From contig DIBV01000017.1 of the NCBI GenBank assembly GCA_002415085.1, positions 705,923 through 769,922 of the forward strand: a stretch of 64,000 nucleotides of DNA, given 5' to 3'. Below the pieces are notes generated by a model. The model was not told the DNA's origin. It worked only from the letters and a program-made list of their open reading frames with translations, and did not search any database. This stretch comes from Arsukibacterium sp. UBA5043 (GTDB taxonomy: Bacteria > Pseudomonadota > Gammaproteobacteria > Enterobacterales > Alteromonadaceae). The stretch's first letter is position 1. Each line of letters starts with the position of its first letter. A program made the position numbers and the translations under genes. Positions 4,011-49,046 of this stretch are shown here, one piece after another.

Positions 4011-5219
4011 TTAGTGTAATTTAGCAATAAAGGAATCGCCGTGCGCCATCGCGTCCAGCTTAAAATAATCGGCCAGAGTCTGGCCTATGTCAGCAAAGCT
4101 CATGCGCTCGCCTAAATCAGTGCTGGCCAGGCCGTGCTGATACGCCAGCACCGGAATATATTCCCGGGTATGTTCGGTACCCGGCCAGGTTGGATCACAA
4201 CCATGATCCGCCGTCATTAACAACAAGGTATCTTCAGCGCAGGCGTTAAGCAGTTCGGGCAAGCGGCTATCAAAATACTCCAGTGCTTCACCATAACCAA
4301 TTGCATCACGCCGATGGCCGTAATTTTGATCAAAATCCACCAGATTAGTAAATACCAGGCTGTTATCTGGCTGTTTCGCCATTTCAGACAACGTGGTGTC
4401 AATCAGCGCCGCAAGACCAGTGGCTTTAATGTTTTCGCTGATCCCCTGATGAGCATAAATATCCGCTATTTTACCGATGCTGATCACCGTGCCACCTGCC
4501 CCGGTTAGTTTATCCAGCACAGTGGGTGCTGGCGGTAAGACTGAATAGTCACGGCGGTTGCCGGTGCGGGCATAGTTATCAGCGCTATCACCTAAAAAGG
4601 GCCGGGCGATAACGCGGCCAATATTGTATTCATCTAACAGCTCACGGGCTACCCGGCAAAAGCTCAGCAGCTTTTCCAGACCAAAATGTTCCTCATGGGC
4701 GGCGACCTGAAATACGCTGTCAGCAGAGGTATAACAGATTGGCCTGCCGGTTTTAATATGCTCATCCCCCAACTCGCGCAGGATATCAGTACCGGAGGCA
4801 TGACAATTACCTAAAATGCCGGTTACCCCGGTCCGCTTGCATAATTCAGCAATAAATTGTGGCGGAAAACTCTCTGTTTTTGCGTCAAAGTAGCCCCAGT
4901 CAAACAGCACTGGCACGCCGGCCATTTCCCAGTGACCACTGGGTGTATCTTTACCACTGCTAAGTTCACGGGCATAACCATAGGCACCGACCGGCTGTAC
5001 GCTGTCGTCCACTTCTGGGGCTCTGCCTGCGGCAGCAGTTGCCGCCTTTACCAGGCCTAAACGCGCCAGATTGGGTAAGGCCAGCTGACGGCCTTTATGT
5101 TTAACGAATTCACGCGCGATACTGCCAAACGTATTCGCACCCACATCACCAAACAGCTCGGCATCGGGCGCACTGCCAATACCAAAACTATCCAGAACCA
5201 GAATCACTGCCTTTGCCAT
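4011..5219 (-). CDS. deoB: Phosphopentomutase
   Basis: 402 residues (E. coli DeoB 407). It converts (deoxy)ribose-1-phosphate to the 5-phosphate, using two metal ions and a phosphothreonine. Alkaline-phosphatase-fold motifs are clear: [13 protein letters not shown] at the N-terminus, [12 protein letters not shown] with the phosphorylated Thr, and [19 protein letters not shown] near the C-terminus with metal ligands. The ATG at 5219 is preceded by GGGAGT at good spacing; a GTG 15 nt upstream is in frame but falls within that site. It is the first gene of the operon; deoC and deoA are not in this cluster. Confidence 0.95.
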
Positions 5220-7849: not shown

Positions 7850-7925
7850 TGGTGCCCAGAGGCGGAATCGAACCACCGACACGCGGATTTTCAATCCGCT
7901 GCTCTACCGACTGAGCTATCTGGGC
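7850..7925 (-). tRNA. tRNA-Phe (GAA), distal copy
   Basis: A 76-nt cloverleaf with encoded CCA. The acceptor arm begins GCCCAGA, the D arm is GCTCAGTCGGTAGAGC, the anticodon loop reads TTGAAAA with GAA, and the T arm contains GGTTCGATTCC. It is identical by eye to the copy 57 bp upstream. Confidence 0.97.
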
Positions 7926-7982
7926 AAAAAAATTGTGCTGGTAATATTGTCCTGCACCTGGCAGCAACAGAACACCAAAATA

Positions 7983-8058
7983 TGGTGCCCAGAGGCGGAA
8001 TCGAACCACCGACACGCGGATTTTCAATCCGCTGCTCTACCGACTGAGCTATCTGGGC
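7983..8058 (-). tRNA. tRNA-Phe (GAA), proximal copy
   Basis: 76 nt with encoded CCA and the same sequence as the copy at 7850-7925. It lies directly after the promoter at 8071-8099, so the two are read as one transcript. Confidence 0.97.
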
Positions 8059-22734: not shown

Positions 22735-22809
22735 AGGGGCGTAGCCAAGCGGTAAGGCAGCGGGTTTTGATCCCGCCATGCCCAGGTTCGAATCCTGGCG
22801 CCCCTGCCA
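22735..22809 (+). tRNA. tRNA-Gln (UUG), first copy
   Basis: 75 nt with encoded CCA; the anticodon loop is TTTTGAT with TTG. The first pair is A-T, and the arm AGGGGCG pairs with CGCCCCT. It differs from the second copy by one base in the variable region (GCCATGCC against GCCACGCC). Confidence 0.96.
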
Positions 22810-22869
22810 TTAACTCAGGCAGTTGATTTTATCTCTCCTTGTGTTTATCTGAACTGCAATCTCTATTTT

Positions 22870-22944
22870 AGGGGCGTAGCCAAGCGGTAAGGCAGCGGGT
22901 TTTGATCCCGCCACGCCCAGGTTCGAATCCTGGCGCCCCTGCCA
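22870..22944 (+). tRNA. tRNA-Gln (UUG), second copy
   Basis: 75 nt with encoded CCA, almost identical to the copy 60 bp upstream. It is the last tRNA of the operon and is followed by a terminator. Confidence 0.96.
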
Positions 22945-23005: not shown

Positions 23006-23096
23006 GGTTACAACATCTTTTGTGCTCGCCACAGCAACTCACTCACGCTTCGCATTCGCTCAGACACTCTGTGGCTGCGCAAAAAGAGTTCTAACC
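23006..23096. repeat. Intergenic hairpin repeat, copy A
   Basis: A 91-bp imperfect inverted repeat between the tRNA-Gln operon and the 3' end of ubiF. Outer arms are GGTTA/TAACC, then AAC/GTT, TCTTTT with AAAAAGA, and GCCACAG/CTGTGGC nearest the loop. The loop region begins CAACTC and ends CGCTCAGACACT. Copy B at 27283-27375 shares the loop ends and the CACAG/CTGTG base, a C-C mismatch and a bulged A at the same places, but has different outer stem bases that still pair. Function unknown. Confidence 0.75.
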
Positions 23097-23118
23097 TCCC
23101 GGTATTAGAACGTCTAAA

Positions 23119-24300
23119 CTATTTAATCCCAACAGCATAATGAGTAACTAATTTTTTAAGCGCACCACTACGCGACGCAAGCGTCAGCGCCAGTTGGCGT
23201 AATTTACGTAGCGGAGCAATGTCATTGCCAAATAACTGATAAAAGCCATCCATGGTGCTCATCATCAGTAAATTAGCTGGTTTACGTTTACGCTGATACC
23301 CGCTTAACAGTGTCTCATTACCAATATCTTGCTGTTGCTGGTGCGCACTAATAATCAGCTCCGTCAACAGCTTTGCATCGGCAAAGCCCAGGTTTACCCC
23401 CTGCCCTGCTAACGGGTTAATGGTATGGGCAGCATCGCCCGCCAGCACTACCCTGCCCGCAAAATAACGGTTAACATCCATTCGGGCTAATGGAAACCAG
23501 CTGCTGCTTACCACCTTCACCTCTCCGAGCTGTTCAGGGAAAGCCTTTAACAGTTCCCGGGTAAGTTGTTCTGGTTTAAGCGTTGCTAAGTGTTTTACTG
23601 TAGGCGCGTTGTCATACCAGACAATATTACCCTGCTGACCAGGCAACGGTAAAAACGCCTTGGGGCCAGTTGGGGTAAATTGCTGCCAGGTGACATCCTG
23701 CTGTGGGTAGGGTGTATTTACTAACGCCACTAAACAAGCCTGCTGGTATTGCCAGCCGCTAGTACCAATACCGGCCAACTGACGCAGTTGCGAATTGCCA
23801 CCATCGGCAGCAATGACTAATGCGCTCCTTAGCTGCTCGCCACTATCCAGGGTTAACAAGGCATTGTCGGACGTTTGGCTTAATGCGCTAACCGAGGCCG
23901 GACAAAACCGTGTCACCTTAGCGGTAAATTGCTGCCATAGCGCCAACTGCAGCACATTGTTTTCAACAATGTGGCCCAGGTGGCTATTTTTAACCTCGGC
24001 AGCATCAAAGGTGACAATGCTGGCCGGATGTTCAAACGCCTGCAGCCGCTGATAAGGACACAGCCGCATCTGTTGCAATAACTGCCAGGCACCCAGCTTA
24101 GTTAGCCAGGCTTCACTGGCCAGATTAATCGAAGACACCCGCAGATCCGGGGCACTGGCAGAGTCAAACTCAGCAGGCGCCTGTTTCTCAATTAACGCAA
24201 CCTGCAGGCCCGCCTGGCTGAGCGAAAGCGCAATAGCCGCCCCTACCATGCCGCCGCCGACAATGCTGATATCAAATTGCTGTACCGTGTTACTACTCAT
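23119..24300 (-). CDS. ubiF: 2-octaprenyl-3-methyl-6-methoxy-1,4-benzoquinol hydroxylase (FAD monooxygenase)
   Basis: 393 residues of the UbiH/UbiF/VisC family. The FAD-binding site is SIVGGGMVGAAIALSL at the N-terminus, and the second FAD motif is GDAAHTINPLAGQGVNLGF. Stretches such as HIVENNVLQLALWQ, AGIGTSGWQYQQACLVAL and TWQQFTPTGPKAFLPL resemble E. coli UbiF more closely than UbiH, so it should hydroxylate the ubiquinone ring in a late step of synthesis. Assignment within the family is by resemblance only. It is monocistronic. Confidence 0.85.
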   Translation of the reverse strand: MSSNTVQQFDISIVGGGMVGAAIALSLSQAGLQVALIEKQAPAEFDSASAPDLRVSSINLASEAWLTKLGAWQLLQQMRLCPYQRLQAFEHPASIVTFDAAEVKNSHLGHIVENNVLQLALWQQFTAKVTRFCPASVSALSQTSDNALLTLDSGEQLRSALVIAADGGNSQLRQLAGIGTSGWQYQQACLVALVNTPYPQQDVTWQQFTPTGPKAFLPLPGQQGNIVWYDNAPTVKHLATLKPEQLTRELLKAFPEQLGEVKVVSSSWFPLARMDVNRYFAGRVVLAGDAAHTINPLAGQGVNLGFADAKLLTELIISAHQQQQDIGNETLLSGYQRKRKPANLLMMSTMDGFYQLFGNDIAPLRKLRQLALTLASRSGALKKLVTHYAVGIK

Positions 24301-24446
24301 TAAACCTAACCTTATCTGTGCTTAGGGTGCCTATACTACAATTTATTTCACACCAGCCTGAAAGTGAACCTTTACTGCGCCGGTCTTTGATGTTGGGCAG
24401 GTTAACCCACTACTGCCAACAACTATAATGAACTCAGGAATACTTA

Positions 24447-25079
24447 ATGAAACGCTATCTTATCACTGCTTGTGCAACCCTGTTCAGTATCAAACTTATG
24501 GCAGCAACCGGCATTGCCCAGAGCCCAGAGCAGGTCACTCCTCTGCTAAATGGCCTGGCCATTCCTGATGTTACTCTGACTACAGCAGATAACACTAACC
24601 TGGCATTGACTACTCTGGTAAAAAAACAGCCCAGTGTCCTGGTATTTTATCGCGGTGGCTGGTGCCCCTATTGTAACGCCCAGTTGGCAGCACTGCGAAA
24701 TATAGAACCGGATTTAGCAAAGCTAGGCTACCAAATCATTGCCATCACCCCCGACAGTGTCAGTTCGATTAACAACAGCTTAAATGACACCGGCGGCCAG
24801 AAATTAACTTATCAATTATTGTCAGACAGCCAGTTTAAAGCCAGCAGCGCCTTTGGTCTGGCGTATTATCTGGATGATAAGACAGCCGCCATTTATAAAG
24901 GTAAATTAGGCAGCTTAATTACGACTGAAAACGGTACTGAAAAAGTGGTATTGCCCGTGCCAGCTGTCTATATCTTAAATACAGATGGGGAGGTCGTTTT
25001 TAACTATGTACATATCAATTATAAAAGCCGTTTAGAAAGCGAGTTGCTGTTAAAAGCCGCTGAACTTGCCTTGCAATAA
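24447..25079 (+). CDS. Peroxiredoxin-like (AhpC/TSA) exported redox protein
   Basis: 210 residues. A signal peptide of about 19 residues (MKRYLITACATLFSIKLMA) predicts export to the periplasm. The thioredoxin-fold core has VLVFYRGGWCPYCNAQL, a CxxC active site at about residues 73-76, and later IITPDSVSS-like and PAVYILNTDGEVVF stretches typical of AhpC/TSA and redoxin proteins. It probably reduces peroxides or disulfides; the redox partner is not visible. It stands alone between ubiF and aguB. Confidence 0.82.
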   Translation: MKRYLITACATLFSIKLMAATGIAQSPEQVTPLLNGLAIPDVTLTTADNTNLALTTLVKKQPSVLVFYRGGWCPYCNAQLAALRNIEPDLAKLGYQIIAITPDSVSSINNSLNDTGGQKLTYQLLSDSQFKASSAFGLAYYLDDKTAAIYKGKLGSLITTENGTEKVVLPVPAVYILNTDGEVVFNYVHINYKSRLESELLLKAAELALQ

Positions 25080-25114
25080 TATCTGTTTTTTCAGGTTGTC
25101 TCACCTGTTGACAG

Positions 25115-25151
25115 CAGCAACAATCTTTGAGGTTGGCGTTGCTGTTTTTTT
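25115..25151 (+). terminator. Probable terminator after the peroxiredoxin-like gene
   Basis: CAGCAAC (25115-25121) can pair with GTTGCTG (25138-25144) across a 16-nt loop, followed by TTTTTTT. The long loop lowers certainty. Confidence 0.5.
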
Positions 25152-25262
25152 CTGACAAAAACGTTGACGAGCGCACAAAAATACGGCATTTTGCGCGCCC
25201 TGTTTGGCAAGTATTGCTACTAATGCTAGCCTGTTGGTTTAACCCTCTGCTGGAGATAACTG

Positions 25263-26150
25263 ATGCGTAATGTAACCGTTGCTGCAACTCAAATGGTTGG
25301 CGGCTGGAATGTTGAAGAAAACATCGCCCGTGGCGAAAGACTGGTGCGTGACGCAGCGGCTAAAGGCGCCCAGATTATTCTGCTGCAAGAGCTGTTTGAA
25401 CGTAACTATTTTTGCCAGAAACAAAAGCCGGATTATCTGGAATTTGCGACTACCGTTGCAGAAAATCCGGCCGTCAACCACTTTATTAAGATTGCCAGAG
25501 AACTTAACGTGGTGCTGCCCATCAGCATTTACGAGCGTGCTGGCAACTGTTTATATAACAGCGTGGTGATTATCGATGCTGACGGTTCAAACCTGGGCAC
25601 GTATCGTAAAAGCCATATACCGGATGGTCCTGGCTATAATGAAAAATACTATTTCACCCCGGGCGATACCGGCTTTAAAGTATGGCAAACCCGTCATGCC
25701 AAAATTGGTGTCGGTATTTGCTGGGATCAATGGTTTCCGGAATGTGCCAGAAGCATGGCATTGCAGGGCGCTGAATTACTGTTCTACCCCACAGCAATAG
25801 GCAGTGAGCCGCATGATGCCACCATTAATTCCCGCGGTCATTGGCAGCGTACTCAGCAGGGCCATGCTGCAGCGAATTTAATGCCGCTTATTGCCTCCAA
25901 CCGGATTGGTACCGAAACAGAAGCTGACTACCATATTACCTTTTATGGCAGTTCATTTATTGCCGACGCTACGGGTGAAAAAGTGCAGGAAGCGAATCAA
26001 ACCGACGAAGCGGTGTTAATACACACTTTTGATCTGGATGCCGTTGCAGCCAATCGCCGCGCCTGGGGCCTGTTTCGTGACCGTCGAATCGACATTTACG
26101 ATACAGTGCTAACCAAAGATGGCAAAGTAAATCCGGAGAACAGCAAGTGA
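25263..26150 (+). CDS. aguB: N-carbamoylputrescine amidase
   Basis: 295 residues of the nitrilase superfamily. It hydrolyses N-carbamoylputrescine to putrescine, CO2 and ammonia. The Glu-Lys-Cys triad can be read in [23 protein letters not shown] and [17 protein letters not shown] site precedes the ATG. The last 4 nt overlap the GTG start of aguA, so the two steps from agmatine are translationally coupled. Confidence 0.96.
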
Positions 26151-27259
26151 GCCGTTTACTGCCAACCACACCTAAACACGATGGTTTCTCGATGCCCGCC
26201 GAATGGGCCAGGCATAAGCAAACCTGGATGGTATGGCCTGAGCGCACCGATAGCTGGCGTATGGGGGCTAAACCTGCCCAACAGGCATTTTGTGCTGTTA
26301 TTACCGCTATCGCGCGCTTTGAGCCGGTAACGGTAGCGGTGTCAGCGGCGCAGTATGCTAATGCCGAAGCGCAGCTAAGCACAGCCGGCGCATTATACCC
26401 GGTTCGGGTAGTAGAAATTTCCAATAATGACGCCTGGTGCCGTGATACCGGGCCAACTTTTGTTACTAATGACGAAGGTGAAGTACGAGGTATTGACTGG
26501 ACCTTTAATGCCTGGGGTGGCCTCAACGGCGGGTTATATTTCCCGTGGCATTTTGATGATCAGGTTGCCAGTAAAATTTTAGGGATAGAACAGTTACCCC
26601 GCTACCGCACAGAAGACTTTGTGCTGGAAGGCGGCGCTATTCATGTCGATGGCGAAGGCACCTTATTAACTACCGAAGAGTGTTTATTAAACGCCAACCG
26701 TAACTCTGATTTAAACCGCGAGCAAATTGAAGCAAAACTGGCAGAATATTTAGGGATCAGCAAAGTGCTGTGGTTAAAAGACGGTATTTTTAACGACGAA
26801 ACCGATGGTCATGTTGATAATATGGCCTGTTTCGTCAAACCCGGTGAAGTGGTGCTGGCCTGGACAGAGGATCAGAACGACCCGCAGTATGCCCGCAGCA
26901 AAGCGGCGCTGGATTATTTAGAAGCCAGCACTGATGCCAAAGGCCGGAAGATTAAGGTCCACAAGTTACCCCTGCCCAAACCCATTATTGCTGATGCTGA
27001 AGAATACGCGACCGTAGATGTCAATCTGAACTCGGCACCGCGGGAAGCTAACGCCCGACTGGCTGGCTCTTACATCAACTTTTATTTATGTAACGGTGGC
27101 CTGATCATGCCAACTTTTGATGACCCGAATGATAAAGTTGCCGCGGATATATTACAGCAGCTGTATCCTGATCATCAGGTTGTGACCGTACCTGGCCGGG
27201 AAATTTTACTGGGTGGTGGCAATATTCACTGTATTACCCAGCAGCAACCAAGGGGTTAA
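26147..27259 (+). CDS. aguA: Agmatine deiminase
   Basis: 370 residues of the guanidino-modifying (peptidylarginine deiminase-like) fold. It converts agmatine to N-carbamoylputrescine. [18 protein letters not shown] is near the N-terminus, [14 protein letters not shown] carries active-site acids, [10 protein letters not shown] holds the catalytic His, and the nucleophilic Cys is in GGGNIHCIT near the C-terminus. The start is GTG, overlapping the aguB stop codon. The product feeds AguB. Confidence 0.97.
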
Positions 27260-27282
27260 CTCTGCGGAAAGGGTGTAGCTGC

Positions 27283-27375
27283 GATTGCAACACCCGCCCC
27301 GGCTCGCCACAGCAACTCGCGAGTGTTCGCGCACTCGCTCAGACACTCTGTGTCGACCGAAACGGGGTTCCAATC
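27283..27375. repeat. Intergenic hairpin repeat, copy B
   Basis: A 93-bp imperfect inverted repeat between aguA and ppiC, ending 28 bp before the ppiC ATG. Arms: GATTG/CAATC, AAC/GTT, CCCG/CGGG, CGG/CCG, TCG/CGA, CACAG/CTGTG. The tip adds a perfect hairpin GCGAGTG-TTCGCG-CACTCGC. It has the same fold as copy A (23006-23096) with compensating stem changes. Function unknown. Confidence 0.75.
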
Positions 27376-27402: not shown

Positions 27403-27681
27403 ATGTCCAAAGCCTGCGCGTTACACATTCTGGTTAAAACCCGGGAACAAGCCGAAAAGCTAAAACAGCAACTTGCCAAAGGCGCTGACTTTAGCAAACT
27501 CGCCAAACAACATTCGCTGTGTCCGTCCGGCAAAAAAGGCGGTGACTTAGGCGAGTTTCGTAAAGGCCAGATGGTAAAGGCCTTTGACGATGTCGTATTT
27601 AAACTGGCGGTGTTAGAAGTACATGGCCCGGTGAAAACCCAGTTTGGTTTTCACCTGATTAAAACCCTGTATCGGAGTTAA
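27403..27681 (+). CDS. ppiC: Peptidyl-prolyl cis-trans isomerase, parvulin type
   Basis: 92 residues, a single parvulin domain without signal peptide, so cytosolic. [35 protein letters not shown] and [13 protein letters not shown] are the conserved rotamase blocks. It matches E. coli PpiC in length. The stop codon shares TTAA with the stop codon of the converging helicase gene. The hairpin repeat copy B lies in its upstream region. Confidence 0.95.
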
Positions 27682-48853: not shown

Positions 48854-48930
48854 TGGTGGACGCAGGAGGATTCGAACCTCCGACCGCTCGGTTCGTAGCC
48901 GAGTACTCTATCCAGCTGAGCTATGCGTCC
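48854..48930 (-). tRNA. tRNA-Arg (ACG), second copy
   Basis: 77 nt with encoded CCA. The anticodon is ACG in GGCTACGAACC; the body is very close to E. coli argV. Acceptor GGACGCA pairs with TGCGTCC. Confidence 0.97.
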
Positions 48931-48969
48931 TTGGGGTATTACACTATCTGATCTGTATTCTTTTATAGA

Positions 48970-49046
48970 TGGTGGACGCAGGAGGATTCGAACCTCCGAC
49001 CGCTCGGTTCGTAGCCGAGTACTCTATCCAGCTGAGCTATGCGTCC
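48970..49046 (-). tRNA. tRNA-Arg (ACG), first copy
   Basis: 77 nt, identical by eye to the copy at 48854-48930. It lies 14 bp after the tRNA-Ser gene. Confidence 0.97.

Follow-up and report, generated by a model that had tools for sequence, protein, structure and literature searches.

A dispersed hairpin repeat in Arsukibacterium and its relatives that may act as folded single-stranded DNA

Why would two intergenic hairpins of about 90 bp keep the same fold while the letters of their stems differ? The question is raised by a 64,000-nucleotide stretch of Arsukibacterium sp. UBA5043 (contig DIBV01000017.1), referred to here as the window, in which a sequence-only reading had singled out copy A (23006-23096) and copy B (27283-27375) and had taken the paired changes between them to suggest selection on structure. 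There are indeed two hairpins with paired arms and the same fold. We lean towards the view that A and B belong to a dispersed family of non-coding palindromic repeats whose members work as folded single-stranded DNA. Such a repeat would resemble the repetitive extragenic palindromes (REP) and bacterial interspersed mosaic elements (BIME), although it fails the RAYT-REP and attC tests that we made, and it would be recognized as a folded single strand by a putative protein.

The two hairpins and their family

Both hairpins lie where they had been placed, and both fold better than dinucleotide shuffles on either strand, more clearly so on the minus strand. The DNA folding energy of copy A is -17.9 kcal/mol on the minus strand (z -2.91) and -14.1 on the plus strand (z -2.36); for copy B the values are -29.3 (z -4.72) and -22.8 (z -3.20). 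We give sequences on the plus strand, the orientation in which the folds had been drawn, and presume that the strand that folds in function is its complement. The differing feet are present in the sequence (GGTTA/TAACC in A, GATTG/CAATC in B), as are the C-C mismatch and, in both copies, the loop ends CAACTC (23035-23040 in A, 27313-27318 in B) and GCTCAGACACT (23058-23068 and 27337-27347), which form conserved columns in the alignment of copies from this genome. Two details of the original description held only in part. The inner stem CACAG/CTGTG at the base of the loop (23030-23034 with 23069-23073 in copy A, a pairing counted in the covariation test below) occurs in A and B but is dispensable, as another copy in this genome (L013:4456-4565) has CGGGG/CCCCG instead, and the bulged A is conserved as a bulge position but not as an A (column 17 of the alignment).

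A genome search at E <= 10 gave 29 matches, several being chance matches or half copies, and the hits were then read individually. This left 24 copies, A and B among them (27 by the covariance model at E <= 0.01), so the pair is not an isolated one. The stretch between the two core halves is shorter than 50 nt in 21 of the 24 and 93-104 nt in the other three; with 104 nt as the longest, none of the 24 has a gene inside its loop. Twenty of the 24 went into the alignment, which omits the three long-loop copies and L013:4345-4451, a near-identical match to the L012 copy. Several copies carry, nested in their tips, an insert with GTTCAAATNCGTTCC.GACG.ATTTGTC, which also occurs in another hairpin family (L020:3436-3611, L023:3380-3544, L024:3672-3838 and L313).

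The paired changes persist when more copies are aligned. With 24 pairs scored in the 20 copies, 88.7% of cells are paired, falling to 35-43% when the partner is slid by one to three columns, and 69 cells are double changes against 21.1 in shuffles, a number reached in none of 500; a second measure, of further pair types, is not above the shuffles (29 against 29.0). In 122 distinct copies from relatives (drawn from 100 of 113 pattern-scan loci, and fitted to the structure of the model and hence biased towards it) 91.4% of cells are paired, double-change cells number 413 against 102.7 shuffled (0/500), and further pair types 52 against 44.9 (3/500). The units in both tests are cells rather than independent events, and related copies are counted repeatedly. 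Single sites show the same kind of change. At the copy A site most orthologues have the foot GGTTA/TAACC; genomes G034 and G007 have GATTA/TAATC, G015 is intermediate with a G-T pair, and G009 has a mismatch. The inner stem there is found both as CACAG/CTGTG and as CGCAG/CTGCG, and in it G015 has A-C and G034 has G-T. These results support the original claim that paired changes preserve the fold, and the family is one that Rfam lacks.

The family model matches 28 of the 31 genomes in the genus. It has 14-32 matches in 22 of these, and none in G003, G005 and G011. Under stricter filters only two of 197 genomes of the order match, this one and G082. The counts for G033 (7 matches) and G031 (2) include a related longer repeat, also found in G082, which has other flanks and the same core. 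A scan of 84,980 species genomes with a sequence pattern returned at least 80 matches, and those listed name Rheinheimera, Arsukibacterium, Alishewanella and metagenome-assembled genomes of Gammaproteobacteria. By blastn, no plasmid matched copy B or the G082 repeat; nine Gordonia phage matches (33 nt, E 0.02) were regarded as chance. At about 4000-12300 of L291 in G033, a block of genes stands between arrays of the related repeat, those on one side in plus and those on the other in minus orientation; by its translation, one of the genes resembles a class D beta-lactamase. A tandem repeat around CACTCCGGTACTGGT in the same genome (L310, about 4755-4855) is also matched by the model, probably by chance.

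An invariant core under a DNA-type tip

What is most constant in the repeat is not its stem. Across the aligned copies of this genome the unpaired CAACTC and CTCAGACAC side, the C-C mismatch and the position of the bulge are almost invariant, while the tip between the core halves varies in length and sequence, even among orthologues with a common stem. The layout is [stem]-AACTCGC-tip-GCTCARACA-[stem], which on the minus strand reads TGTYTGAGC..GCGAGTT. The pattern AACTCGC-N(0-25)-GCTCARACA has 338 matches in 88 of 369 genomes of the class (Gammaproteobacteria). The reversed pattern gives 26 matches in 23 genomes, and two or more matches are seen in 48 genomes for the pattern itself against 2 for the reversed one. 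A perfect flanking stem of at least 5 pairs surrounds 41 of 57 distinct core occurrences, where 4.3 would be expected from random re-pairing of the flanks; these 57 include 12 from G448 (mutual close relatives), 2 from G082 (members of the window's own family) and 13 from viral contigs. The stems around distant cores have no common sequence. A model of the core only (E 0.001, stricter filters) matches 7 of 369 genomes of the class and 7 of 398 of the phylum, this genome being in both sets and every phylum-level match falling in the same class. The strict core has no match in viral contigs, whereas among the matches listed for the generic core in such contigs 117 are usable and 6 have a flanking stem of at least 6 against 0.2 expected, which suggests that they are mostly chance with a few real ones. 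The core strings were not found in the literature, and the family is not named in work on Rheinheimera repeats or REP-like repeats, judged by titles and abstract openings, so by Rfam and the literature searched the core is uncatalogued.

Excerpts of PMC4686876 describe DNA mini-hairpins as extraordinarily stable when two or more G-C pairs carry a loop of the form GNA or GNNA, and at family level most tri- and tetraloop tips take this form on the minus strand. Of 93 tri- and tetraloops in the genus (from 108 distinct apical sequences) 69 begin with G and end with A, 65 of these closed by C-G, and the same holds for 17 of 21 in distant occurrences (15 closed by C-G; 32 apical sequences), or 13/16 in genomes and 4/5 in viral contigs. 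On the plus strand such tips number 1/93 and 0/21. Shuffled apical sequences give 9%, and among control hairpins from the window and 80 loci of the genus there were 74 in 566 on either strand, 23 with a C-G closing pair. In the 39 GNNA loops the third base is G in 7, A in 13, C in 14 and T in 5; it is thus free, and the rule is not the GNRA rule of RNA. Wobble pairs are also scarce, as the 2907 pair cells of the relatives comprise 2558 Watson-Crick, 100 G-T (two columns account for 80), 81 A-C and 168 other pairs. When Rfam was run on the window and eleven related loci, no copy matched above the gathering score; a SNORD10 match at L347:1493-1561, where it overlaps a distant copy, scores 20.2 bits (threshold 37; E 1.4) and was regarded as chance. 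The family is probably not an RNA family, and it is likely that the repeat acts as DNA.

Gene context, movement and rival explanations

The 24 copies in this genome, which adjoin varied genes, were classed by a simple gene caller as 9 convergent, 13 tandem and 2 divergent. The 109 copies classed in relatives divide into 53 convergent, 50 tandem and 6 divergent, with a further 13 at locus edges and 2 inside ORFs. Copy B was misplaced as convergent because its downstream open reading frame is short: it lies between an ORF ending at 27259, which from its translation we take to be agmatine-deiminase-like, and a short one with its ATG at 27403, presumably PpiC-like. Inverted doublets occur at C8 and C13 and an alternating a-b-a-b array at C18, with inverted pairs also in G017, G035, G037, G041 and G082; the organization is thus BIME-like. 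At the copy B site, 30 loci divide into 12 with a plus copy, 3 with a copy in the opposite orientation, 12 with no copy and the next gene within about 130 nt, and 3 undecided. At the copy A site, 11 of 16 species have a plus copy, one has a remnant and four have none, and a second, inverted copy is present in six; apical parts differ among these orthologues and the stem is retained. Part of this pattern reflects loss; we infer that the copies once spread in trans.

Other repeats share the copy B site. A second hairpin family (TCTTTTCTTCGACC..GTCGAAGAAAAGA) is present there in G014, G007, G036, G040, G039 and G015 (L319, L322, L324, L325, L328 and L331), between GCGAAGTAG and a CTGCGG-like sequence that are joined in G013 (L323); by eye, this is likely an insertion next to GTAG. 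A third hairpin-like family (AAGGTAACAACACACAGGGACGCC.. and similar) stands beside the opposite-oriented copy in G004, G002 and G032 (L313, L321 and L326). Elsewhere in the window, at 7853-8058, 22735-22941 and 48857-49046, tRNA genes lie as tandem pairs whose scores are equal or similar.

Several observations weigh against a mobile repeat acting as folded DNA. The tip rule was noticed first and tested afterwards, and the apical sequences are related by descent, which makes the counts non-independent. Neither hairpin of the window clearly follows it. The tip of copy A (23047-23053, plus GCTTCGC, minus GCGAAGC) is a possible DNA mini-hairpin, but two registers of equal length tie there, and it was not counted as GNA because the tip caller chose the one with loop AAG, closed by G-C. 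The apical hairpin of copy B (GCGAGTG..CACTCGC, 27319-27338) has a six-base loop on the minus strand, CGCGAA, which is outside the GNA/GNNA rule and hence was not counted either. This genome follows the rule in only 9 of 15 tri- and tetraloops and the related repeat of G082, G033 and G031 in 3 of 14. The division of wobble pairs by strand is ambiguous, with 81 G-T cells for the minus strand against 20 for the plus strand if two columns specific to one subtype are left out, and 81 against 100 if they are kept. The figures for gene context are raw counts with no genome-wide baseline. The species without a copy at the A site are scattered and also lack the flanking sequence, so that these absences look like loss of an old inherited copy. 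There is no clean target-site duplication; what may be a duplication of CCTGCTT was seen, by eye only, at the second copy of the A site. In a search for empty sites (341 sequences, 597 candidate pairs) the gaps in the candidates read further were wider than the hairpin. No protein was found that binds or mobilizes the present repeat.

The strong covariation speaks for the RNA reading that the original description implied; a cis-acting RNA hairpin near mRNA 3' ends, selected for stability, processing or attenuation, would also fit copies that are intergenic and rare in divergent gaps, and the fact that A and B themselves are without a clear DNA tip. The lack of an Rfam match, the few wobble pairs, many GNA triloops, GNNA loops whose third base is not restricted to purines, and the varied neighboring genes all make such an RNA less likely; in addition, no T run directly follows the stem of A or B, and orientation to tandem genes is only slightly uneven (37 opposite, 26 same, over this genome and relatives, with B misclassed as above). 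We consider the RNA explanation unlikely, but it is the strongest of the alternatives. That the paired changes are real does not by itself prove selection, because both arms can be written in a single step, through template switching or through exchange between copies, a mechanism described in excerpts of PMC8794818. Palindromes without function, their arms matched by nothing else, would agree with paired changes that have few intermediates and with A-site orthologues that vary in the apical part while the stem stays. By itself, however, such copying would not hold an invariant unpaired core within unrelated stems, nor the tip rule, nor a conserved C-C mismatch; core and mismatch argue for constraint, since copying of arms would tend to repair the mismatch. 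Purely neutral palindromes thus seem to us quite improbable.

Least probable of all, and in our judgment very doubtful, is that these are REP/BIME proper, hairpins moved by a RAYT (Y1 transposase). Intergenic bulged hairpins in inverted doublets agree with that explanation, and the genome has two Y1_Tnp genes, but both are flanked by other repeats, and neither is beside the present one. Four of the 31 genomes of the genus (G007, G013, G035 and G040) have no Y1_Tnp match yet carry 22, 17, 8 and 30 copies, while G003, G005 and G011 have Y1_Tnp and no copies. The tag GTAG/GTGG (or CGTC) that stands beside the foot of REP hairpins in excerpts of PMC6006769 and PMC3733652, sought as GT[AG]G or CGTC in the first 9 nt, occurs at just 1 of 40 strand ends in the 20 aligned copies. 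The palindromes flanking one of the Y1 transposase genes (L047:1369-1412 and 2147-2190) contain AAAAAGGGTCAGAGTGA and are a separate repeat.

If the repeat does act as folded single-stranded DNA, the strand complementary to the folds as originally drawn would form the hairpin when single-stranded, during replication or by supercoil-driven extrusion, and would expose TGTYTGAGC..GCGAGTT, the bulged core, to a protein sensitive to both sequence and structure. Such a reader of the folded strand would most plausibly be a recombinase or transposase that acted in trans to spread the copies, and the arms may stay matched through its requirement for the fold, perhaps aided by template-switch copying within the palindrome. 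More tentatively, and with more doubt than belief on our part, the core could mark a class-wide superfamily of single-stranded-DNA hairpin signals with arbitrary stems, in which one protein family reads the bulged motif under an extra-stable DNA tip and the Rheinheimera repeats are one branch. If the reading as folded DNA is right, covariation found here by a genome scan signals a DNA fold and not an RNA, the core together with a GNA/GNNA tip is a concrete signature for seeking the protein behind a widespread repeat, and the family would be a natural system in which to test tip extrusion in vivo beyond phage N4.

Comparison with known systems

The present repeats share with REP, BIME and REPIN elements, whose arrangement is described in excerpts of PMC6006769, the form of dispersed intergenic bulged hairpins in inverted doublets and alternating arrays. 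They differ in their size (about 90 nt), in a conserved core near the tip, and in having no tie to the presence of a Y1 transposase. ERIC and other palindromes resembling miniature inverted-repeat transposable elements are also about 100 nt long, intergenic and present in many copies. ERIC folds as a single long stem-loop according to excerpts of PMC2267715. Unlike these palindromes, the present family has a largely free, covarying stem with a fixed core. Integron attC sites function in folded single-stranded form, bulged and variable at one end, and carry the consensus RYYYAAC ... GTTRRRY at the foot. Those boxes were found in none of the 20 aligned copies on either strand, and the copies, unlike attC sites, are dispersed. 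Excerpts of PMC4496689 state that extrusion of the N4 promoter hairpin requires a loop-closing G:C pair and a loop with 5' G and 3' A. The core and stems of the phage N4 early promoters differ from those of the present family, but the tips are alike, with a G at the 5' end of the loop, an A at its 3' end and a G:C pair closing it.

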